A stretch of DNA of 64,000 nt from Voacanga thouarsii. Lineage: Eukaryota > Streptophyta > Magnoliopsida > Gentianales > Apocynaceae. Position 1 is the stretch's first letter. The number at the start of each line of letters is the position of its first letter. Location of the stretch: NCBI GenBank assembly GCA_026120185.1, contig JANUWF010001659.1:1612001-1676000 (forward strand), written 5' to 3'. The notes below the pieces were generated by a model. The model saw nothing but the letters and a program-made list of their open reading frames with translations. It had not been told where the DNA came from and searched no databases. Both the position numbers and the translations under genes were made by a program. Shown here piece by piece: positions 11,893 through 34,649 of this stretch.

Positions 11893-13130
11893 AGGTAAGT
11901 GTTATATATCTTATCAATGACTATTTATTACGAACAACTTTCATACACTTTAACAACAATGTAATTTTAAACTGTTGTGTTTGTATAGGTTGCAAGAGCT
12001 ACATAACACATGTATGCATAAATGTACATAGATATTGTACCTCATGAACTGTCAACTACTTACATAATAACTTCTGACAACAATTTAGACTTCTAAATTA
12101 ATGCAGGTTACAACTAATGCCTCATTAACTCCCCACTAAATTCCATAGAAAATGTAATAAATTTACATATCTAATAATTGTGATATGTAAATCACTAAAT
12201 AACATCAAAGTCATGTGGGAATTACTCATTAGCAAATGAAAATTAATTAATTCTTTAATACTTTTCAATAAAAAACAAATATATATGTCTGTTTCTTCAC
12301 CATAGCAAAATTCCAATCCTTAACGCACTTTTTACCAACTCTTATCAAACATCTGTCACCATCACTATAGTTATTGAATAATGGGAGTAAAAAACAAATC
12401 AAGTTCATTATGGTTTTATGCTAATTTTTAATAACAATTTCTTTTGCAAAAGATGTTTGAAAAAGACAGAAATGTTTTTTTTTGGAACGTTCAAACACCT
12501 ATTCCATCTATCTTATATAAGCATTCATTAATCTCATTCAAATTCCTGTTTATTTGAATATATTAAAAATCCACCATACTAATGACATGTGCATAATTTC
12601 ATTAAACATTGTTACATACAATACATTCACATATGCAATTTTGTTTATCTGTTCATGTTATAATTCCTTGGTCTTGTTGACACCTAATGTACTTAGACAA
12701 ATGTATAATCCCATTATAGAATTCAAATCTCATCATCAATAACCCCAATTACATAATATATTTAGACTCAATAATTGTTACTAATGTATTATTGCAGGTC
12801 CTACTATGTCATCAACCCCCTACTATTTGGCAAAGAAATTGTAACAATTATTCTGATCTTATGATCTGTAAAATATTCTGATCTTATTATTTGGTGCGAA
12901 GATAATATTACCTCATTTATATGTGTCATCAAAATATTTTTGTTCCTACGAAATTACATTTTGTTTCTTTCTATATATAAAGAAAAATAAATGGAAAGGG
13001 GACAAAAACTCTCTATTTTACACACTCACATAAGATAAATAATTCTCTCATCCATACATCCAAACAAGCCTTTTAAAAAATCCCTTAATGCATTTCACCA
13101 TAATTTCACTAAATAAAAAATACAATCACG
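11893..13130. other. AT-rich stretch downstream of the helicase
   Basis: A possible splice donor follows the helicase block (AAGGTAAGTG near 11893) and possible acceptors occur later, but no further conserved domain could be read on either strand. Probably decayed Helitron interior. Confidence 0.4.
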
Positions 13131-13225
13131 TACATTCACATATTCACTACTATTAATGTTTTCATAACATTCTGCATCATACGTGAACTTCTGATGGTAA
13201 ACTATCATTTTAAAATACCTATGTT
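13131..13225 (+). repeat. Palindrome-bearing interspersed repeat, copy 1 (partial)
   Basis: Begins with CATTCACATATTCACTAC and contains TGCATCATACGTG followed by GATGGTAAACTATC, one base away from the perfect palindrome of the other copies. Similarity fades about 50 bp later, so this copy is truncated. Confidence 0.8.
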
Positions 13226-13741
13226 AAGTATAGCGACCTATTTTTCTACTAAATAAGATGAGAAATCAGCGCTATGGTCTTTGAACCTTTCATCATCACA
13301 TCAACATGCATGATTTGTGATGATGAATTGAGACATGTAACAATATTTGCCCACCTACTATACTTCTAATGAAAACCCCCTATCACTAACATTTTTATAT
13401 ATACTAATAGATTCACACATTTTGATGAACAAAGCGAATTTACCTGACCCGAAAGATATTTCCTCTCCCATATTCAAAGAATTTCATGAAGAAGTTGAGT
13501 TCACCTGAGTCAAAAGATAGTTGAACTGCTAGAAGATGCTTCAACTCCTTCAGATGCTTAGTCTTCGATTGATATCAGTTATTGCTATTAGATAATGGGG
13601 TTAACAAATCAAGGAGATTCAGAATAGGTTTTGCAAGCATGCTTTGGTGAATTGAGATATTATTTTGCAATCTCCCTAATACAGGATAATACATCAATAG
13701 AAAAACTTTTTCATGTATACCTAATCACACATTAAATATAA

Positions 13742-14010
13742 AAAAGAATGTGACTATTCTACTATTGAGAAATGTCAATCCACAAAAATTATGCAATGGC
13801 ACAAAAATAATTGTAATACAAACAGGAAAAAGTGTCATCAAATAACAAATTATTTCAAGTTCAAGTGTAAGAGACAAAGTAACAATAGAAGATGTCAAAT
13901 AATGTCAGATTCAAAGATATCTCTCACTTTGATAAGAAGACAATTTCCTGTGAGTATATGCTATTCAATGACAATTAACAATAGAATCCCAAATGTAACT
14001 TTAATATCAC
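13742..14010 (+). pseudogene. Second, shorter Helitron helicase fragment
   Basis: The stretch reads NVTILLLRNVN, LCNGTKIIV, then LTLIRRQFPVSICYSMTIN. It parallels 11457-11700 in the first copy, both as protein and as DNA, down to shared wording such as LIRRQF. It lacks the KSQGQ motif and everything after it, and several frame breaks are present. It is either an internal duplication of the same element or the relic of a related Helitron. Confidence 0.75.
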
Positions 14011-14640
14011 ATTGAAAGATTTCCTACAACTTCAAAACCATTCTCACATAATAATTTATAAAATAATTTACACCATTAATTTTATGCAAGTTGCAAAGAG
14101 TACATGACAAAATCTTCCATGCTTTCCTCTCCATGACATGAGTCCAGTTAAATGCACCAACAGATAACAAAAAATGAGTTGGACTTAAATTCACTCAGAT
14201 GCTCAATCTACAATGTAAACTCCATTAGAAACATATTGATTTCTTTCTGATTAATAACAAAAGATATATGCCTCAACAATACATAGAAATAGGATATTGC
14301 CAAAAAAAAAAAGCAAATCTCCTTTAAAATAAGGCATAAAAATCTCTTGCATGCTGAAAATGATCAAAGTTGCTTAAACTTGATTAATCCATTTGCTAAT
14401 ATGAAAATCAATGAATAAAGATTGTTTCAACGAATCCTAAAATATGAATCATCGATACCACAGCTAAATTCATCTACAGTTAAAAAGAAAACAATTATAA
14501 ATGTATATTCCAAATAAAAAAATAGATTAATAAAAACACACAAAACAAAAATATCAGAAACTTACATTCCCCCCCCCCAAAAAAAAAGCTAAATAAAACC
14601 TCAAACTATATTCTTTCGGCATATCTTCACTAAAAAAAGG
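14011..14640. other. AT-rich spacer without recognisable genes
   Basis: No conserved protein or RNA structure seen. Contains short homopolymer runs, including a C9 tract at about 14572. Confidence 0.4.
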
Positions 14641-14840
14641 ACGCATTCACATAAATTAAGAAAATCACTTATATTAATGTTTTGATAACATTGTGCATCA
14701 TACGTGGATTTCTGATGGTAAACCATCATCATAAAACACCGAATGGTTGCCCAATTATATTTATATTAACACCCAATATACTTAGTACACAATCAAATCT
14801 AATAAGCTTATACCATATCTAACTTAGAACAATTTCCTTA
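14641..14840 (+). repeat. Palindrome-bearing interspersed repeat, copy 2
   Basis: A full unit of about 190-200 bp: CATTCACATAAATT start, TTGTGCATCATACGTGG, the palindrome GATGGTAAACCATC, AAACACCGAATGGTTGCC, TATATTAACACCCAATATAC and a closing ATATCTAACTTAG. This and copy 3 continue into a further shared segment, giving a tandem unit of about 480 bp. Confidence 0.9.
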
Positions 14841-15159
14841 TGATTTTTAAACCAAGGAATCAACAAACAATGCCTGGGAAATACCTCACATAAGTCACAA
14901 AAATTATTATAAATATGTCAACTGCTATTAAGATCCAAACTAACGTGAACCATCTTACTAAAAAATTAAAACAAGGACAAAGTCTAGAGAAAAGAACAAA
15001 TGCCATTGCCAAAAAATCTGTTGCTCAACGACCATCAAAACATATATCAGAGAAGAAAACATGTATGAAGTAAATGCAAAGAGAAATTAACATGACATAA
15101 CGAATGGCAAAATAAAAGCACACCACAAAAGGTGTATGAAAAAAGCTACAACTGTAGTT

Positions 15160-15320
15160 TTTTTGACAATATGCATCATACGTGGGCTTCTGATGGTAAA
15201 CCATCATCGCAAAACACCGAATGGCTGTCTAATCATGTTTATATTGACACCCAATATACTTAGCATAGAATAAGATTCACTAAGCTTATCGAATATCTAT
15301 CTTAACAGAATTTTCCACCT
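15160..15320 (+). repeat. Palindrome-bearing interspersed repeat, copy 3
   Basis: Shares GCATCATACGTGGGCTTCTG, the perfect palindrome and the ACACCCAATATACTTAGCAT block with the other copies. The extended 3' part (to about 15640) repeats the segment after copy 2, including ACCTAACATAAGTCACAGAC versus ACCTCACATAAGTCACAAAA. Confidence 0.9.
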
Positions 15321-15749
15321 AATTTTTTTAGAATTGAAAACAAAAAACCATAGCTGACAGATACCTAACATAAGTCACAGACTTATTATGAATCTGTCAA
15401 CTACTATGAACATAGAAAAAATAACCAAAACAATATTACTCCAACGTTGAAACAATGACAAGGTCTAAAGAAAATACAAGAAATGCCATTTCCAAATAAA
15501 CAATTGCTCAATGATTTTCAAAACAAAAGCATCAGAGAAGAAATAATATATCAATGAAACTAAACATTAGATCATGCATACCCAAATAAATACAAAGCCA
15601 AAATACATATATGAAAAATTCATAAATGTTGTGTTTATTTCTATGGTTCAAAAAATCACAACTGCTAATCTTCATATAAGGTAGAATGCTAATGACCTGT
15701 GTTCATTGGCTAAAGTAACAATGTACATGAAATAGGATATCACAATCAG

Positions 15750-15750
<1 letters not shown>

Positions 15751-15783
<33 letters not shown>

Positions 15784-15880
15784 TATATGTATATGTACAA
15801 ATATGTATATGTGTATATATATGTGTATGTATATATATGTGTGTGTGTGTGTATGTGTGTACACACACACACATACACAT
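15751..15880. repeat. (TG)n and (TA/TG)n then (AC)n microsatellite cluster
   Basis: An alternating purine-pyrimidine region: (TG)n at 15751-15782, mixed TATG steps, then GTGTGT running into ACACAC around 15860. The last part is an inverted dinucleotide repeat. Confidence 0.95.
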
Positions 15881-15904
15881 GTTTCAAATCTATCAAGATT
15901 AAAA

Positions 15905-16060
15905 ATATTGTACATCATATGTGGGCTGATGATGGTAAACCATCGTTGCAAAACACCAAATGGTTGCCAATCATGTTTATATTGACACCAAATATACTTA
16001 GCATACAATCAAATTCACTTAACATATAGCATATCTAACTTAGCTGAATTCCCTTATACT
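15905..16060 (+). repeat. Palindrome-bearing interspersed repeat, copy 4
   Basis: Same unit with TACATCATATGTGGGC, GATGGTAAACCATC, and a nearly unchanged GACACCAAATATACTTAGCA block. It abuts copy 5 with only about 30 bp between. Confidence 0.9.
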
Positions 16061-16091
16061 TTTGTAGACAAGAATAAAAGATACATACATA

Positions 16092-16280
16092 TACATTTAC
16101 ATATTCACTATTGTTAATGTTTTCATGACATTGTGCATCATACGTGGACTTCTGATGGTAAACCATCGTCGTAAAATACCATATGGTTGCTCAATCATGC
16201 TTATATTGACACCCAATATGCTTAGCACACACTCACATCTCCAAAGCTTATAGCAAGTCTAACAAAGCAGATAACTCCCT
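16092..16280 (+). repeat. Palindrome-bearing interspersed repeat, copy 5
   Basis: Starts ATACATTTACATATTCACTA like copy 1, then CATCATACGTGGACTTCTGA, the perfect palindrome, and GACACCCAATATGCTTAGCA. Confidence 0.9.
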
Positions 16281-18985
16281 GTATTCATTATTTAAAAACC
16301 TTCATTCAAACAAAAATACATGTTTCTATACTTCCACTGAAAAAGAAATAATAAAAAATATATAAGAATGATAAAATAAATTATACTACAAACATTCAAT
16401 CTTTACATACAGAACATGATAAAGATCATACCAAGGTCATATAGATCATACAATGAGACTTTGTAAACCAAATCCTTCAACTTAATGCTTTCAAATGGAG
16501 AGATTGAATTTATAAAACAATCCAACCTAACCCTACATCAACCAAAAAAAAAAAATGTTAATTAGATACAAGTGTAAACGACAAACGTTAACTATTAAAA
16601 TAAATAACAACTGTCTAAAAAAATAATACTATATTTACCCCAAAAAAAAAGCTTAGATTTGCCAAAAGAACAGCTGGATAAAATAACTCAACAACAAAAT
16701 CAAACATTAAAAGGAATAAAAAAAAACCAAACGAAAGAAATGTAAACAAATGAATGAAAACATTACCCATACCTCAGACACAACAAAATTTTTTAAAGAA
16801 CATTTCTTTCGCTAATCAACTACAATGCAAATAGTACACAATCATTAACAAACCCTCAGATCATGATTAAGCTTCCTACGGACTAATTCTGTTGAAACAA
16901 CTTAAGAGAAAGAAAAAAGAACAGAATTGAAAGCAGAGGAAGAGTGCTCAATATGCGATAGGAAATCAATTCAAAAGTACAAATATGGCTGAACCCTACA
17001 TACCCCCTTGGGGGAAAGATAGCGATCTCTTACAAGCGCTATGACATTGATTCTAAGGAAAGGCAAAATTGCAAAATAGAAATGGAAATCTCAACGCTCA
17101 GTCACAAAGAACGCCAGATCTGAAGCTCGAAAGTCTCAACACAAACCTCCTACTCTTAAAATCACGTCATTTAAAAAAAAATCACATTTCTCATAGAAAT
17201 CTACCCTGTTCACTCTTCAGATCTGATGCTACATAATCCGCCAGGTTGCTGTGATTTGGGTTCTGAGAGATGGAGACAGAAATGGAGAATCGGGTAGATT
17301 TGTTAAAGTAAATCAACATTGCATAAAGCTAAGACACTTCTTTTGAGAACTTGCAAAAAGGCGAAGAAGAGTGGCAATGCAAGAATTGCAGCGTTTGGTC
17401 TTTAGAATATTTTGGACCTCAGATAAGTGTTCACAATACATGAAAGTGGACTTCAAAATTGTATCAAATCTAATTAATTGAAGTATTTGACATACAGTAC
17501 AACTCATGAATTCTTTCAATACCATGTAATATGGAAACAAAATAATTAAAAAATGGTCACACAAAACAAAATAATTACACTCTACCACGACAATAATTCA
17601 TTACTAACTTCTATAACTAAATTAAACTTATCATTAAATTAAAAAATTAAACAAAAAATGAGATATTGAAATTTTTACAAATTAGATTTTAAAAAAATAA
17701 AAAATTAACAAAATAAAGCATACGCAAGACAACTCCCTATCCTGTCACAATGTAAACCCAGAATCACATTTAGTATAGTTGAATTAGACGTCCCCTATCA
17801 TTATCCATGATCCAGTGGATATACAGAGAACATTATATATCAACGGAAAAAAAATAAAATTTCTTTCATCAAACAAAACTAGCCTTTTTTAATCCACAAA
17901 ATATCCATTTACAATATCCTTTCCTCATATTTGCTATATAAAGCCCAAAAGAAGATGGGCTTCAAAATGTATTTGCAAATTGCAAATTGGAATTTGTAAA
18001 CTATTAAGAAAGTCATTTTCAAAAAATAATAAATTAAAAATATATATTTATATAAACAAATCAACTTTTGAAATGTAAAAAATTATTCAAATTCTAAAAA
18101 ACAATACATTTAAAAACAAAATTACTCATCGTAGAGCAATTAGCTTAGACTAATTAACAATTAATTTGAAAATAACATAATTCAAAAAACATTATCAAAT
18201 TTAATTAACAAAAAAGGTGAAATATCATAAAATATTATTGACTGACCTAGTTTTCATAATAGTACAATTAGTGTATGATGATTGTAAAGAGAATTGATAT
18301 TTTTTCAACTAAGGATAAATAAATTGATAGTTTAAAAAATTAGTTAAAAATAAATACTAGGAATAAAATAAATTAATCAACAATTATTACATTTTTAATA
18401 ACAAATTCAAAAAAAATTAACTACTATTGGGTATGCTAATGAGTAAATGATTAATTAGCCATAAAGCGAAGAATATAATAAATATTGCTCCAATCTATTT
18501 ACAATCATAATCTATTCTTTGAATAAAATAAAAGTAAGTCAAGAAGGATAATAAATATTACTCCAATCCACTATAACTACTGTAATCTATCCCTTGAATG
18601 TTTGATAAATAAAAAAGAAACAGTAACTTTTGTTTGCAAAAATTGAAATAAGAAGACTTTGTTGAGGGAAATATTTTCCCCAAAAAAAGCTCAATATAAA
18701 TATTTTAGAACCACTTTCATTTTAACCTCCCGAATATAGTAGTACTAGTAAGGATTCTCACGTGAGACGCGAGTTTAGGTACCCAAGATATTTTCATTGA
18801 TATCAGTACATTGAACTTTGATTCAAATAATTTTAGATCATTTTGTTACAATTTATTACAGGACAACTTAAAAATTCAAGTATTAACTATACTAAGATTC
18901 TAACTCATGATTAGTCTTCCAGGTTTAAAAAATTAAGATTCTAATTTTTCAGTAAAGAAGCCAAGAGCCTAAATTTAGGTGTTAA
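16281..18985. other. AT-rich region without recognisable genes
   Basis: 16380-16420 echoes a stretch near 10565 in the helicase region. Around 16980-17300 the composition is less AT-rich and has a CCCCCTTGGGGG palindrome (about 17004). This could be a captured 5' UTR or promoter, but no protein can be read. From 17640 to 18960 it is very AT-rich with nothing identifiable. Confidence 0.4.
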
Positions 18986-23823: not shown

Positions 23824-25768
<1,945 letters not shown>

Positions 25769-25907
25769 CTTTGCAGCAAGAAATTTTGAGCAACCTCTCA
25801 ATGACCTTTCTATCCACAAGACAATCATCCACAACAAGAACATCCAATTCCTGGGCAGTACTAGAAGAACAACACTGACTGGTCATAACTACTTCCTCCA
25901 TAGCCAT
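25769..25907 (-). pseudogene. Exon 1 fragment of a type-A response regulator (cytokinin signalling)
   Basis: From the minus-strand ATG at 25907 the exon reads MAMEEVVMTSQCCSS, then ELDVLVVDDCLVDRKVIERL and LKISCCK, followed by a GT donor (AAAG then GTTTGA). VDD supplies the acidic pocket, and the intron position after the SCK block matches type-A ARR genes. The remainder of the receiver domain, including the phosphorylated aspartate, is absent, so it cannot work as a receiver. Spliced in place, it would join to aspartate aminotransferase exons. Confidence 0.85.
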
Positions 25908-26195
25908 TTCACCCTTTTGGGCACGACGAAACTCTGTATACACATACAATAGAAGTCTCAACTCAAATGTGCTTAGCCCAAGAAAATGCAAGCAATTAAT
26001 AGGTGTGCTGCTGCTAAGCTCACCTCACTCATGGCCACCACCTGACCACAAAGTTACACTTATTTGTTTCGTACCAAAGCTAACGTGGGAATAGACAAAT
26101 GGAAAGGACCATCATTTTGTAAAAAGACACAAATGCCACCAGAAGTGAATGACCAAAAATGACCAGTATCACCCAAACTCCTTTTTCTCTTATGT
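25908..26195. other. Flank left of the MULE, possible original promoter side of the acyltransferase gene
   Basis: This stretch would have lain directly upstream of the acyltransferase before the MULE inserted. It includes a pyrimidine-rich CTCCTTTTTCTCTT, common near plant transcription starts. No TATA box is firmly identified. Confidence 0.35.
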
Positions 26196-26204
26196 AGAAG
26201 ATTT
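26196..26204 (+). repeat. Left target site duplication of the MULE
   Basis: AGAAGATTT directly precedes the left terminal inverted repeat and matches AAAAGATTT on the right (8 of 9), the length expected of Mutator-like elements. Confidence 0.75.
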
Positions 26205-26383
26205 CGGAAATTCCGGAAAATGGTGCTGTTTTTGCACCAAATTCCGGCAGAGGGGTGGCTGGGGTAGGAATTCCATTTATAGTGAGGTCGCATTCCCAAA
26301 ATGGACCTAATTAAAAGAGGTCGCGACCTCACCGCGATTTCTTTTTTTTTTTTTTTTAAATATGCGATTTTGAGGTCGCATTA
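26205..26383 (+). repeat. Left terminal inverted repeat of the MULE
   Basis: Starts CGGAAATTCCGG and carries three AGGTCGC-type sites: 26284-26295, the palindrome GAGGTCGCGACCTC at 26317-26330, and 26372-26382. A T run follows CGCGATTTC, as in the other end. Confidence 0.85.
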
Positions 26384-28355
26384 AATAAACCCCCTTACCC
26401 GCGTCGTTGTTCCTGTGCAAAACTTCAGTGCAGTCGCCCCGCCCGTCCCCTCTTCACCGGAAAGCAGTCGACTCGAGCCATCCCCACCAACAGCCCAACC
26501 TCTATTTGTCTCTCGGTTGGAGGTGAGCTAGCCATTGACACTTTTCCAAGTTCCTAAATGTTATGTTTATCTGGTACTTTATCCTCCTATTATGTAATGT
26601 TGATGAATTTTTCCTGAATTTTTGCATTTTTTGTTTCCCATTCTTCCTGTATTTTTGCAAAATTTTGAACATTTTAATGGGAGCAGTAATTGTCCCATCA
26701 ATATAACCCTTGAGATCCTTACTAGTAATATGAATTTGCATAAGATAAGATTAATAGGGGTAGTCTGTTCCATTCAGCTTGACTTGAATAATTTGATTCA
26801 ATTCAGAAGTCAGGATTAGCATCCTTTTTCCCAACCCAACTCAAAGCAAAGAAATCACACAAGAGCAACAGACTCAAAAAGATTCAGCTCCAAAACACCA
26901 AATAATCCGGGCAAAAAAGAGATTCAGAAGGTACCTTGAGATATCTTGAAGCTAAACTAAATCTTGAAACTACAAAACGCCATTGTCTTCCATTTTTTCT
27001 TCTCTGCAGAGCACTCAACTTAAATTGCAACCAACCTTGCCATGAGATAAACTCCTCTATGTCACAATAATGGGGAGTCTTGAATTCAGCTGGGACCAAT
27101 CACTCAGAATCAACCATCCCAAGGCCTAAACAGAAGATCTAAAAGGAACCCAAATGCAATTTCAGATATACCAGCAAGGTGAACAAACCAGAAACCCAAG
27201 TGAAATCCTAGCAAAAGCTAAATAAGAACAAAAAAAAAAAAAATCAAATAGCATCCGCTCACTAACTCTATCAAGCTAGACAACAGAACCTTTACCAAAC
27301 TGAAATGAAATTGCTACCAACCTCTCAATAGAATCTAAAAAATAAAAAATGGGTGGACTGGAGGAATTTTCGAAAGAGGAAATGAGGGTTTAAAAGAAGA
27401 GGTGGGAGCATAGAGGAATTTGGCTGAGATCGAAAGAAACCGACATTGGCTCTGATATCATGATAACTTTCTACAAGTGTAGAAGTGGAAGAAGAACAGA
27501 AAAGAAACACAAAGCTGAATATATTCCATTGAGGATAATAGGAACATTACATTAACATTCTTTTGTGAAATAAAGCTTTAAATCTGGTCTTGTTTGAGAA
27601 TTGATAATATTCTTTTGTCTTATTTATATATTTATATATCTTTTCTTGTACATATTACTCCATAGTTCTTATTTTTCCTTATCTCCTAGATTTTATTTTG
27701 TAAGGCAGAAAATATATATTTGCTTGGATGCTAGTTCTTCTACATTCTCACTGTTCAATCTTTATTTTATTGGAGTTGATAACTGGCCCAGTCCCCTGCT
27801 TGTGTCTGAATTTGATAGATTTTGGGTAGGCATTTGAATATAAGGAAGACTAGGGAGCTATTTTGGCAGGATTTACATGAACTCCCAAAGTCAATATAGT
27901 AATTCATTTACCTATGAAACATATCTGAGCTATCTATACAGTGCATGTCTGCTACAACGAAGTGAAGTAAAAGATAATAATTAAAAATAATATAAATATA
28001 AATATAAATAAAACTTAAAATAATAAAAATGTAAGAGAATAATAAAACTGTTAAAGTTTCACAAATAAAATTCATTTGCTTTAGGTCTATTTTTTTTAGT
28101 CAAAACAAGCAGTAACTAAAACAACAAAATTAAAAGGAAAAAAAGTCAACCCAAGGCCAAACAAAAAACCCGAAAAGAGTATTTTGAATTTTGCATGCTA
28201 AAAGCTGGTGAAGTTAAGCCTTAGCTACATAGTTCTCTGTTCGAGCCATTGCTTTGGCTGTTATATACTCATTACACTTCATATTTTTTGAGTGTCTTTA
28301 AAGCGCATAGATACAATCGTAGTTTAATTATGTGATCCTAATTTAAATAGGTACA
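26384..28355. other. MULE 5' non-coding region
   Basis: 26395-26520 is GC-rich with CCCGCGTCGTTG and similar, possibly a promoter or captured 5' UTR. At about 27450-27470 a TGATATCAGAGCCAA-like sequence on the minus strand resembles a copia primer-binding site next to a possible LTR, but no coding sequence is attached. The rest is AT-rich without recognisable genes. Confidence 0.4.
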
Positions 28356-30710
28356 ATGGATCACATGCACATAGATATTCATCCGGGTCCTCTCGTCGAT
28401 GGTTTACTATCTCTTCAATCGAACCGTCGTTCGTCTTTGGTATGGTCCGGTGCTCAGCATACTTGTGAGATTCCATTGGTGTACAGACGATACGATTCTA
28501 CATTTTGGGAGCATACGCCCCTTTCTGGTAGAGTTGCGGAGTTAGTGGATAGGGTTGGTTTTGGTGGAGTCAGACGAGCTGGACACATCTAGGTTGATCA
28601 TGCTCTCGTCACCGCGTTAGTAGAGCGATGGCGTCAGGAGACCCATTATTTCATTTCCTCATAGGAGAGGCTACAGTGACACTGGAGGATGTTGCGATAT
28701 TGTGGGGCCTTAGAGTAGATGAGGATGCGGTGATAGAGCCTCCTTATCACTACAGCAAAGGTGATTGGATTAACCTTTGCGATAGACTTCTTAGCATTAG
28801 ACCACGGGCCGAGGACATACGGGGAAATAGGATTAAGAAGGGTCCTATTGAGGAGGCCTTGGATTTTCCTTTGGCCGATGATGCTACTGATGACATCGTC
28901 CTGCAGCGTGCTCGTTGCCTTATCTTCCTATTGATTGGGGGCCTACTGTTCTCCGATAAGTCGGGGAACTCGATCCACTTGAGATACCTACCTCTCCTGG
29001 AGGATTTGGAGGCATGCGGGGCGCTCAGCTGGGGTAGTGCTGTTCTAGCTTTCCTGTATAAATGCCTGTGTCAAGCCTCTCTCGGGTCTGCGCAGGAGAT
29101 TTGTAGACCGATGGTCTTACTCCAGGTACGAATTCAAATATTTTTTATATTTTATGTTCATTTTATAAACATGTGTGGTACGAGTCTAATACATTTGTGA
29201 CTATGTTGTAGCTATGGGCATAGGAGCATGTTAAGGTTGTACGGCCAGAGAGGAGTATGCCTCTCGATGATCTCCCACCCCTTGCACCCTACGGTGCTCA
29301 ATGGGACGTTCCAGTACAGTTTTATCGAACGTCCACACATGTTCTCGTGATATATCGCTCCCAGCTAGATGCCCTATCAGACGATGATGTGAATATATAT
29401 GAATACTTTATTTAAAATTCTTTATTTATTTGACACTAACAATTCCGAACAATTATGTGACAGTTTATCTGGCGGCCTTATCAGACTGATTTGGTCAGTC
29501 TTCTCCCCCCTGTATGTTTGGAGGCACCCGATATCTGGAGGTCACGCACGGCGTTGATTAGGCCGGGAGGTCGTCGAGTTATATTTTCCGGATCGAGTGA
29601 TGCGGCGGTTTGGGATGCTTCAGCCTATCCCGATAGACTGTGATACGATGATTGTCCTGCACTTGGTTGATAGGCGAAGCAATCCCTCCAGAGATTACAG
29701 GATATATCATGCGTCGTATCTTCAGATGTGGGATACTCGAGCAGACTTTGTCCAGACTACTACGATGGGCGTTTCGGTCACAGTGGATTATATGCAGTGG
29801 TATAGGGACCGTACCCGTCTACACATCGGGAACCCCACCACTCGTGCGTCGTTGATCTCGGGGTATCATCCTTCCGAGTCCAATACAGTTGTCATGGTAT
29901 GTATTTCATTTAGTAATGGTAGGAGTTAATAATTTGATAATTTCTTTAATTATTCACAAAAATTTTCGAATGATGATTTCAGGCTGATATTATGCGACGT
30001 TGTATGACAGTAGCTGAACGCCACATTCATAGTGCCGACTCGATGTCCCGGAGAGCATTCATTGATATTCGAGACATGTGCGCCTGAGGACTCGTTGCTA
30101 GTAATCAGGATCACGAGCGGTATGCTGGACCAATACCGGTAGATTCAGGCACGCCGATCATCCCAATGACGCAGCCTACGTCGAGGCCCCCAGGATCCTA
30201 TTGATGGACGCATGCACCCAGGTCTGAGGCGTGGGGGTAGGAGGGCCTGAGTTCGAGCGCATTCACCACATCACGATCCCGCCCCAGAGAGGGTGCCTCA
30301 GCAGCCGAAGGTTCAGGAGCAGACTGGAGATGGCACACAGTTTGCACCAGATGATCTGCTTGGTCATGACTTCGTTGTCATTCCCGTTCACTCTTCCCGT
30401 ACCACAGCCGGCGTGTTCGATCACGGGGATGCGGGCCCATCTTTCCAAGCCCAAGGGACAGACACTTCGCACATTGAGGAGCTTCCCGTGCGTCCCTTTC
30501 GCAGGATAGTATGTCACTGGCGACGCAGACCCGGCGCACCAGCAGCAGAACAGATTCCCGATCCCGAGCCAGCTCCTGTGCCGGTAGTAGACCAATTACC
30601 AGATCCCGTGGCAGTTTCACCGCATCTCGATGATCCCGTGCCAGCTCCACAATAGCCTCCGGACGGCAACGAGCCAGCAGGTGGTGGGAGACCAAGGCAA
30701 AAGATTAAAC
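28356..30710 (+). pseudogene. Plant mobile domain (PMD; aminotransferase-like/MAIN-like) protein gene of the MULE
   Basis: Exon 1 (28356-29125) begins MDHMHIDIHPGPLVDGLLSL, then WEHTPLSGRVAELVDRVGFG and, after a frameshift near 28650, GEATVTLEDVAILWGLRVD and SGNSIHLRYLPLLEDLE. Introns with GT-AG borders lie at 29126-29211, 29389-29463 and 29897-29982. Exon 3 carries FIWRPYQTDLV and YFPDRVMRRFGMLQPIP, hallmarks of the PMD family. Exon 4 has ADIMRRCMTVAERHIH and a proline-rich C-terminal tail. A TAG at 28590 lies where glutamine is usual (RAGHI then VDHAL), and further frame breaks occur near 29550 and after 30085. MAIN and MAIL1 hosts of this domain help silence transposons. In elements its role is unknown. 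Confidence 0.85.
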
Positions 30711-31005
30711 CTCGCCGTCCGTGTGTGCTCTCACCACATTTGCTGTACTTGATCTTAGGAGACACTATGTACTTCATATACCATTTGTTAGGGGATAATT
30801 TTATTTTTGATACACTGCTTTCGTTGTCATTACTTTTAGTGTACAAGTTATGGATTTTATTTCATTTGGCACTATGCTTTTGGACTTTGAGTATGGTTGT
30901 TTGGGTTATGAATTTCATTTCGTTTGGCACTCTGCGTTTGAACTTTGCTTATAGTGTACAGGTAGTAGATTTTATTTCGGGCAGGAAGTGGAAAAAAAAA
31001 TATTA
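30711..31005. other. Intergenic region of the MULE, upstream part
   Basis: T-rich sequence following the PMD gene. It contains a loosely repeated module (TTTATTTCATTTGGCACTAT, then TTTCATTTCGTTTGGCACTC) about 65 bp apart. Probably 3' UTR. Confidence 0.4.
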
Positions 31006-31031
31006 AGGTCGCATTCTATAGAATGCGACCT
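31006..31031. promoter_or_regulatory. Perfect 26-bp palindrome between the two MULE genes
   Basis: Half-site AGGTCGCATTCTA followed directly by its exact reverse complement. The same AGGTCGCATT core occurs in both terminal inverted repeats. It sits about 275 bp upstream of the transposase start, so a binding site for the element's own transposase or PMD protein is plausible (inference). Confidence 0.7.
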
Positions 31032-31305
31032 CCACGAGTATATTTCACTCCCAGGTTTAGCGGCTACGATCGGATTTGGAGATTTTCATTTTCGCTCCGG
31101 ATAGCAACATTGTAATGCTGTTGCGGTTATAGGTGTTTGATGGGTAGCTCAGATTGGGCCTATTGATTTTGGGCTTCGATCTACTTAAAAAGGTAAAATC
31201 AATGTATTCCGGTTGATTTTATTTATAATTTTGCAAGTCATTCTTTCACATTACTTTCTCATTTTCATTATTTCCTCATATTTATCAGATTGTGCTCACA
31301 TTGTA

Positions 31306-34206
31306 ACGATGACTGCATTGGATCCCCCTATTGTGCTCTGTTTTTTTTGGGATTGTCAAATACAGCGGGTTATCGAGGCAGCATATAGTTTGATGGGGCC
31401 ATTAAAAAAACCTGGATACTCCGACGTCGGATATTGTATTCTGAACTACTTGAAAAGGTCCGGAACTACCTTGGACTGGGAGGGAGAAATGTGATATTGA
31501 ATATTACACTTCAATATCCATTCATGTATGGATCTGATCAACAATATGCTGCGAATGAGTTGAGTAATGATGATGATATGGAGGTTTTATGGATGCTGCC
31601 GAATGAGTTTAAGTCACAGAGCATCCTACTTCATGTTAGCTATTCAGACTTGACATCTCAACACATAGGTCACTTGGCCGGATTGTCTCCACCAACGGGT
31701 TCATTCTTGACAATGCTTAACCAAGTCACGGGTTTGGGGAACACGATGAATTCATTATCCCAACTCCCCATGGGCATAAGGATGGAAGACTTTAACAACA
31801 TACACCCCCAATCATTTTACTAACCGGTGGAAAATACAGGTGCAACATTTAATATTGCCGGAACTGCATACATTAGTTCAACCGGTAGTAATGCTGAGAC
31901 AGTCGATGTTGGTCACACATCTGAAGGTTTGGCAAGAAGGAATAACTTGATCATCCCCGAGCAACTACTGGTTCAAACATAAAGTCGACGGGAGGTGAAT
32001 ACGTATCCAGCAGACGACAACCGACTGCCTACTAGCACTATCCCAACAGATATACCATCTCAATCGCATGTTGCCATAGGTGCAGTAAATGTTGATTCAA
32101 TGTTGCATACATCTGACGGTGACTGTTTCACTGGCTCGGAAGGACAAATGAATTGGCATGACTCGGATGAGAGTGAAGAAAGTGACATTGTAGCAAACAT
32201 TCCCGCATATGAAGTGCAAGATGACATGAATGACATAGTGGGGCCTTCTAATAGCATTTCTCAAACAGCAAGACTTCTAATATTTGATGATATAGCGGGG
32301 CCTTCGAATACCTTTTCTCAATCAGCAAGATTTCCAATATTTGATGATGTAGGGTCTGGTGCATGTGCTAACGAGTCACTCAACAGGCACTCAGTCGCTG
32401 TTACAAGAAGTTGGTCTAACACTGATACTGATTTGCATCTAAACATGAGATTTTAGAACAAGAAGGAGGCTATATATGCAGTCAAAAAGTGGTCTATTCA
32501 AGCAGGCCGGGAATTCAGAGTCTTGGAGAGTAAGAAGGACTGCTGGTATGCTAAGTGTAAGCATTCAAGTGCTGACAATCATTATTCTTGGTATATTCGC
32601 ATTATACATAAGAAGACTTATGGACAGTGGCAGATACCAACTTTGGACAAAGAACACACATGCGTCATTACAGTTGTGAACAATGTGCATAGGAACATGG
32701 ATCATCGGTTCATAGCCTGTAATGTGACACATTTAGTATTAAATGACCCTGAATGCCATGTGAGTGATGTTATTGCTGAAGTTCAGAAATTGTGGAGGAC
32801 GAGTTGTTCTTATAAGAAAGCTTGGGAAGCCCGAAAGGTTGCTATGGAACTTGTATATGGTGATTGGCCCTCAACGTGGATTGCCCTACCAAAATACATG
32901 CTTGCCTTGCAAGATTCCAATCTTGGGACTATTGTGCGGTGGAGACATCATTGGACTAGTGTGGGTAATTTGAAAGCTTTTGGTTTCCTTTTCTAGTCAT
33001 TCAAACCTTCAATTGATGGTTTCAAATATTGTCATCCAATGGTATCAATTGATGGAACCCATTTAAGGGGACTTTATCTGGGCAAACTATTAGTAGCATC
33101 CACTTGGGATGCGAATAGTCACCTATTCCCTCTTACTTTTGCCATTGTGGATGAGGAATCACTGGAGAGTTGGAGCTGGTTCTTAAAACTCATTCGTCAA
33201 CATGTCATTTTGGACAGACATATATGTCTTATTTCTGATAGACATAAAGGTATTGTAAATGTTGTACGCCATATGAATGAGTGGCAAGAACCTTTAGCTT
33301 TTCATCGATATTGCCTTGGGCACATAAATGGAAATTTTTATGCCAAGTTTAAGGACACTAATTTGACAAGTTTGATGTACGCTGCTAGTTTAGAGCGCAA
33401 AAAGACCAAGTGTCAATCCTATTTGGATGAAATCAGGATTCGAAAAGAGGATGCATTTAAGTATTTAATGGATATTGGTTTGGAGAAATGGACTTTGTCA
33501 TATGATGAAGGGCACAGATATGGTTCAATGACTACTAGTTTGTCTGAATGTATGAATAGTGTGTTGAAGAAAGCAAGATCTCTTCCCCTGAAGGTTTTGG
33601 TGGAAACTTCATTTTAGAAATTAGTTAAATATTTTAATTAACATAGAGATGAAGAATCTAATTTGAGACACCCTTTACCATCTAAAATGTGGAAGTTGTA
33701 TTCTTATTTTGAGGACAAGTCTAGAAGGCATGTTGTAACTGAATATAATGCACAGGCCGGTATATATGGGATTAAATCATCTGTTCAACAAGGGGGTAGA
33801 AGTCCAAATGTTTACAGTCAATTTAACAGAGAGATCATGCACGTGCCAAAAATGGAGTATATATGGTATTCCTTATTCACATGGGTTTGCAGCATGTCGT
33901 CACAGAGGTTGGAACCCTATTAATTTTGTTTTGGAGTTCTATACTAGAAGGAGTTATGAGTTGACATATGAGGGTCAGTTCTTCCCTGTGTCGGATGAAC
34001 AGTATTGGAAGCCTTCTAATTTTACGCTTACACCAGTGAAAGAAATGATGCGAAATGAAGTTCCTGGCCATCCGTGAACATTGAGGATACCTTGTGATAT
34101 GGATTATTGGACTTCCAACTCTCCTCCAAGATTCAACAACTGTCATAGGAGTGGATATACTAAAAGGAATTGTAATAATAATAATTTTACTGTTTCTAGA
34201 AACTAG
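31306..34206 (+). pseudogene. MURA (MuDR-type) transposase of the MULE
   Basis: The ATG at 31306 opens MTALDPPIVLCFFWD; the frame changes near 31455 and then stays in register to about 33800. Parts in order: an N-terminal MURA region (LEKVRNYLGLGGRNVILNIT), an acidic linker (WHDSDESEESDIV), a MuDR zinc domain (NKKEAIYAVKKWSIQAGREF), the DDE core (SIDGTHLRGLYLGKLLVAS, then LISDRHKGIVNVVRHMNEW), a SWIM finger (RSCTCQKWSIYGIPYSHGFA) and a final zinc knuckle (NNCHRSGYTKRNC). Stops are at 31821, 31980, 32454, 32994, 33615, about 33636 and 34075; a second frameshift lies near 33812. In the SWIM finger one cysteine is tyrosine (IPYSH for IPCSH). Several stops fit C-to-T or G-to-A changes. Confidence 0.92.
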
Positions 34207-34489
34207 CCATTGACATTGGACTATTAGTTCGTTTTTTGTTCAATTGTATTTTCAATGCAGCTTCTCTATGTACTTGCGATATTGTTTTTGTTATTTTGAA
34301 TGCTTCAATCCATATAATAGTCAGTCCTTATTCAAACTATATTAAGTAATTGTAGCAGGTGGAGGTTGTAGTAGGTTGATGTTGCATTGTAGGTTGTTTG
34401 AATAAGGTTGGAATTGTAACAGAAGATTGCAGGTCAGAAAAATTGCAGGTTCAGGTCGCATTGGAATGCGACCTTGTATAGGAAGGAAT
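34207..34489. promoter_or_regulatory. MULE 3' region with AGGTCGCATT inverted site
   Basis: At 34453-34474 two ten-base arms, AGGTCGCATT and AATGCGACCT, face each other across GG. This parallels the palindrome at 31006. The remainder is AT-rich 3' UTR-like sequence. Confidence 0.65.
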
Positions 34490-34640
34490 GCGAATGCGAC
34501 TTCAAACTAAGCTATTATAAAAAAAAAAAAAAAAGAAATCGGGTTACTTAGTTGCGACCTCACTACAATAGGAAAATCGAATCGTGCTGCCGGTCTGTCG
34601 GAATTCCGTCAAAAAACACCACCATCTCACGGAATTTCCG
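34490..34640 (-). repeat. Right terminal inverted repeat of the MULE
   Basis: Read inward on the minus strand it starts CGGAAATTCCGTGAGATGG and includes TAGTGAGGTCGCA, CGATTTC plus a T run, and GAAGTCGCATTC. It mirrors 26205-26383 with roughly 70 per cent identity by eye. Confidence 0.85.
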
Positions 34641-34649
34641 AAAAGATTT
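34641..34649 (+). repeat. Right target site duplication of the MULE
   Basis: AAAAGATTT follows the right inverted repeat. One mismatch to the left copy. Confidence 0.75.

Follow-up and report, generated by a model that had tools for sequence, protein, structure and literature searches.

What a short motif repeated along a plant transposon is for is the question raised by a 64,000-nucleotide stretch of the Voacanga thouarsii genome (contig JANUWF010001659.1, positions 1,612,001 to 1,676,000; hereafter the window). The stretch carries a Mutator-like element (MULE) with long terminal inverted repeats (TIRs), a broken PMD gene and a broken transposase gene. An earlier note on this DNA had reported a motif, AGGTCGCATT, in both TIRs and in a flawless 26-bp palindrome between the genes, and had suggested, as a plausible model, a self-regulatory operator bound by the transposase or the PMD protein. 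The motif makes up one half of a dyad that spans 25 bp with its spacer, AGGTCGCATT-N5-AATGCGACCT. Elements of the family carry at most four dyads per terminus, 80 to ~240 bp inward, plus one upstream of the transposase gene.

The element spans 26205-34640 (8436 bp) and its inverted termini begin CGGAAATTCCG. It is classed as a MULE on a MULE transposase domain (PF10551, E 1.7e-15) and on TIRs with a 9-bp target duplication (8-11 bp expected). The transposase also has a SWIM match (E 1.8e-4), with PB1 (E 0.0099) and DBD_Tnp_Mut (E 0.043) matches below the cut-off. PF10536 matches the second and third pieces of the PMD gene (E 6.7e-34 and 1.3e-12), and the pieces of both genes are in line on the same strand.

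Exact copies of the 10-mer lie at 26285 (+), 26373 (+), 31006 (+), 31022-31031 (-), 34453 (+) and 34465-34474 (-), with the variant AAGTCGCATT at 34493-34502 (-) and AGGTCGC additionally at 26318 (+), 26323-26329 (-) and 34554-34560 (-); the positions first reported were accurate to within one base. These six copies compare with a mean of 0.011 in dinucleotide shuffles of the 8436-bp element, a count reached in none of 1000. The interior (26393-34440) holds two, against 0.008, again reached in none of 1000 shuffles. The remaining 55.6 kb of the window contains no exact copy and a single one-mismatch copy at 14638. The palindrome is also present as described: 31006-31031 reads AGGTCGCATTCTATAGAATGCGACCT and is perfect over 26 bp, the longest among the window palindromes listed that is not an AT run, where 300 shuffles of the element gave a longest palindrome of 20 bp.

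The genome searched comprised 1.346 Gb in 1848 contigs, and the exact 26-mer occurs in it once. A search for both arms with 0-16 bp between them gave 632 occurrences; the reversed pattern gave none. Among 50 of these pairs listed, the spacer is 5 bp in 48, 6 bp in one and 3 bp in one, with variable letters. A census of 23 sources (the window element, loci L023-L042, L017 and L020) found pairs with ≤2 mismatches to have a spacer of 5 in 88 cases and other spacers in 8, with 0 in the reversed-arm control; the 104 dyads with spacer 5 and ≤4 mismatches contain 74 distinct spacers. All sources but the window were picked for an exact pair with spacing left free at 0-16, so that arm sequences are biased and spacing is unconstrained. 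With the family's usual 5-bp spacer perfect symmetry is impossible, and the window palindrome owes its symmetry solely to a 6-bp spacer that by chance reads CTATAG. Perfect symmetry, earlier taken to suggest constraint or recent gene conversion, is rejected as a sign of either: the 26-mer is unique in the genome and the arms of close copies vary like their flanks. The same arms also occur in six viral contigs, as a terminator-like stem followed by T's, and these were taken as unrelated. The 14 publications containing the 10-mer appear unrelated from their titles and abstract openings.

Placement is equally regular. The terminal repeats yielded 36 rows, five of them re-found from a second dyad, leaving 31 repeats. 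Of these, 26 have the start of the first dyad (or of its left arm) at exactly 80 bp from the terminus, two have it at 79 bp and one each at 78, 81 and 82 bp, where distances of ~66 to 90 bp were permitted. Adjacent dyads are most commonly 34 bp apart (18 cases), followed by 68 (6), 27 (5), 30 (5) and 35 bp (4). The outermost ~50 bp make up a distinct conserved block, and further in the repeats vary more. The terminal sites are not scattered at random; random scatter was what the earlier note had named as refuting its reading. Ends with target duplications were obtained for six of 22 sources (8436 bp in the window, then 7784, 7310, 3123, 1457 and 1217 bp). PMD or transposase matches occur in 14 of 20 loci fetched around listed dyads and neither in six, two of which (L027 and L037) are short, dyad-bearing elements with delimited ends.

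For the intergenic site, a DNA search beginning just past the palindrome produced 733 candidates, of which 40 were scored as matches, window included, and 600 bp upstream was read for the best-scoring 20 of the 39 other copies. At the orthologous place the dyad is intact (spacer 5, ≤1 mismatch) in 11 and damaged in five, with a spacer of 1 in one of these and damaged remains in four; the region is absent in four. Lack of the palindrome in other copies had also been named beforehand as a refuting result; the dyad is kept intact in these 11, and perfect symmetry is confined to the window copy. Six fetched loci have both genes (L023, L025, L026, L033, L041, L042), with a mismatch-free intergenic dyad in L023, L026 and L041; the intergenic dyad of L033 contains one mismatch and its spacer is 11 bp. 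L026 is nearer to the window and its flanks can be aligned. The intergenic DNA of the L041/L033/L034 subfamily is unalignable to that of the window, except for 59 bp near the PMD gene end in L041. This subfamily nonetheless has intergenic dyads, with a spacer of 5 in L041 and L034. The dyads are retained in two subfamilies.

Judged against L032, L035 and L031, the dyads of the window copy have decayed (Table 1), and right dyad 2 is missing. The sequence GAGGTCGCGACCTC, reported at 26317, is present and is better described as the leftover of a 25-bp dyad minus its middle; a 14-bp palindrome as a motif of its own was rejected, as it is a shortened dyad. The middle or one arm often seems to be deleted, as at 26318-26329 and 34453-34474 in the window and in the intergenic dyads of L045, L051 and L058 (three of the 20 copies), each of which has lost a part. 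The palindromic structure seems unstable and the dyads prone to deletion.

Table 1. Features of the element, in window coordinates
Feature	Position	Strand	Remarks
Left target-site duplication AGAAGATTT	26196..26204		8/9 bases identical to right copy AAAAGATTT
Left TIR, outer 80 bp, start CGGAAATTCCG	26205..26284	+	Inverted match to 34561-34640; block recurs in other elements
Left dyad 1	26285..26308		AGGTCGCATT, 5-bp spacer, right arm one base short; full dyad in L032, L035
Left dyad 2	26318..26329		Collapsed to AGGTCGCGACCT; 25-bp dyad in L032, L035
Left dyad 3, single arm	26373..26382	+	Exact arm; homologous to right-end site 34493-34502
PMD gene, broken	28347..29926	+	Pieces 28347-28589, 28598-29197, 29558-29926
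Intergenic dyad (perfect palindrome)	31006..31031		6-bp spacer; 277 bp before candidate transposase ATG 31309
Transposase gene, broken	31309..34077	+	PB1-like, DNA-binding, MULE, SWIM regions
Right dyad 4	34453..34474		2-bp spacer; 5-bp spacer in L031
Right dyad 3, single arm AAGTCGCATT	34493..34502	-	Full dyad in L031
Right dyad 1, truncated AGGTCGCA	34553..34560	-	80 bp from right end, like other elements
Right TIR, outer 80 bp	34561..34640	-	Inverted counterpart of 26205..26284; block recurs in other elements
Right target-site duplication AAAAGATTT	34641..34649		9 bp, 8 matching left copy

It is favoured here, with moderate confidence, that the dyad is a cis-acting target of an element-encoded protein, preferably the PMD protein, in a VANC-like anti-silencing system. 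An element-encoded protein would grip the 25-bp dyad as two facing subunits. The PMD protein would be this binder, analogous to VANC of VANDAL elements, and would locate the family's non-coding DNA via the dyads, so that the ends and the promoter of the transposase gene stay active in the face of silencing. Non-autonomous copies that retain dyads would be protected likewise. Structural models predict that the transposase and the PMD protein both have folds of solved DNA-binding proteins, that of PMD being VANC21-like; binding, dimerisation, PMD over the transposase and anti-silencing are what we infer. The operator reading of the earlier note is partly upheld, in that the sites belong to a family, lie in the TIRs and in the interval preceding the transposase gene, and accompany two proteins with predicted DNA-binding folds; symmetry as a sign of constraint is dropped from it.

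Several points weigh against the PMD reading. Across 16 close copies with the region (window included), mismatches amount to 3.7% in the arms and 3.4-5.0% in the flanks, and 46% of 518 20-column blocks are conserved at least as well as the arms. No intergenic dyad is seen in L025 and L042, two of the six loci that carry both genes. The match to VANC21 has TM-scores of 0.41-0.43 and was made with a model of a Vaccinium PMD protein, P0139, rather than the PMD of the window, and PDB sequence searches with a PMD profile and one PMD protein retrieved no VANC21. VANC21 motifs are arrayed in a single orientation and not as dyads, according to excerpts of PMC5735166 and PMC10398659. The transposase could occupy the same dyads, and maize MURA itself is reported to lower terminal-repeat methylation. 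As the arms of close copies are no better conserved than their flanks, it is the spacing, the placement and the divergent subfamily that speak for a function; the evidence of constraint is the spacer, fixed at 5 bp, together with a subfamily that keeps the site while its flanks no longer align.

The transposase provides a possible though doubtful alternative binder. A MURA-like protein would use its AFT/WRKY-GCM1-type domain to bind the dyads, most likely as a dimer, pairing the ends, and the intergenic dyad would serve self-control of the transposase gene. The half-site shares five bases with the GCM site, a likeness that is non-significant once corrected for the use of four reference motifs (0.11), as are the resemblances to the GCM, AFT, W-box and FHY3 sites in general; the transposase site might instead be the separate conserved outer 50-bp block of the repeats. 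Binding by a host transcription or silencing factor, which the element would exploit as promoter or shield, is improbable. Dyads do lie near both promoters, and TGGGCC at 31155 and TGGGCT at 31170, which we take to be site II-like, come after the intergenic dyad; the 10-mer is nevertheless absent from the window beyond the element, and we know of no plant factor with such a 25-bp dyad.

The dyads could also be unbound pieces of the terminal repeats spread by duplication or conversion, as their recurrence at ~34 bp and the lack of extra arm conservation among close copies would allow. This is slightly less probable again than a host factor, as arms and spacing are constant while the spacers differ, the DNA flanking the intergenic site is unlike terminal DNA among the matches listed, and the site survives where flanks stop aligning. 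Least credible of all are RNA hairpins, with the palindromes giving rise to small RNAs, for instance, or acting at the ends of transcripts. The window 26-mer is self-foldable, but across the 104 dyads one-arm changes occur at 107 positions and both-arm changes at seven, four of which still pair, where ~6 are expected under independence. Compensatory changes are expected of an RNA stem and are not required of DNA recognised by two subunits; with no covariation the RNA hairpin was rejected.

Other features of the element and its surroundings were noted. The last left site lies ~2.0 kb from the PMD gene in the window versus ~0.8 kb in L042 and 1.2 kb in L023, and the stretch between them contains GGCTCTGATATCA at 27448-27460, which we take to be primer-binding-like; ~26500-28000 is suggested to be a retrotransposon fragment inserted in the element. 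L024 (3182-6815) has two PMD matches in opposite orientations between terminal dyads and no transposase match. A 569-residue Cucumis melo protein (P0085) is listed with PMD and MULE transposase domains, either a fusion or a gene-model join. Transposase relatives were sought in viral and prokaryotic contigs and none was confirmed. The element sits between two divergent possible host genes, a frame at 25677-26024 (-), which presumably resembles a response regulator, and a frame from 34732 (+). A family of dispersed repeats, D3-D6 (70-190 bp, several copies), occupies 13093-16309, with no relation to the element seen.

In several groups of plant Mutator elements the transposase is found together with a PMD gene (PMC6446971), and the texts consulted do not state the role of PMD there. 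The literature searched, including excerpts on PMD MULEs and on MAIN/MAIL1 (PMC6446971, PMC7156037, PMC9899485), names no repeated DNA target of an element PMD. It also yielded no link between the PMD and VANC folds, which the publication behind 9lnj may discuss, and, among the matches listed, no publication that describes the structure of VANC21 or treats PMD jointly with VANC, bar a meeting report citing an unpublished structure. The 25-bp fixed-spacing dyads are a concrete candidate for such a target and the predicted VANC21-like fold a structural lead; together they would explain why these elements carry PMD genes, and would connect VANC anti-silencing with the control of transposon silencing by MAIN/MAIL1. 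If the transposase proves to bind them, the dyads still amount to a recognition code by which the termini of a large family are marked. More tentatively, PMD proteins and VANC may form one sequence-specific DNA-binding fold family, with PMD-Mutators as anti-silencing systems using private spaced dyads, and MAIN and MAIL1 as domesticated members that kept targeting with a changed outcome.

Among the known systems compared, the host PMD proteins MAIN/MAIL1, which come with the DOWN motif, are linked to transposon-silencing control; DOWN (CATGCAGTTT in MORC1) was rejected as the dyad, being a different sequence (PMC7156037, PMC9899485). Like other MULEs with PMD genes (PMC6446971), the element has its PMD gene beside a Mutator transposase. 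As in maize MuDR (PMC3310237), a Mutator transposase is combined with sites within long terminal repeats (MURA sites in MuDR); unlike the convergent MuDR genes driven from both ends, PMD and transposase are codirectional with a dyad before the second gene. Likenesses exist also to VANC/VANDAL21 and VANDAL6 of Arabidopsis (PMC5735166, PMC10398659), Mutator-type elements with a transposase and a second protein, whose short motif is repeated in non-coding DNA and also upstream of the transposase gene; the model of the Vaccinium PMD protein tentatively matches the VANC21-DNA structure (9lnj). In contrast, VANDAL elements have dense one-orientation arrays rather than facing pairs with a fixed 5-bp spacer, degenerate rather than long TIRs, and different motifs (YAGTATTAY and AGTTGTCC/AGTTGTAC). 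CACTA elements (En/Spm, soybean Tgm; PMC2613891) have short repeats inside both ends, partly as facing pairs, which are the presumed targets of a further protein of the element, TNPA. Repeated subterminal motifs of this type are present here as dyads at 80 bp and deeper. The superfamily, the ends (CGGAAATTCCG), the transposase and the 9-bp rather than 3-bp target duplication differ from CACTA, as does the additional site between the genes. By analogy, the element would resemble both VANC/VANDAL and the CACTA subterminal repeats in its working, yet it stands outside both because it lacks the one-orientation arrays and degenerate ends of the former and the ends and target duplication of the latter.
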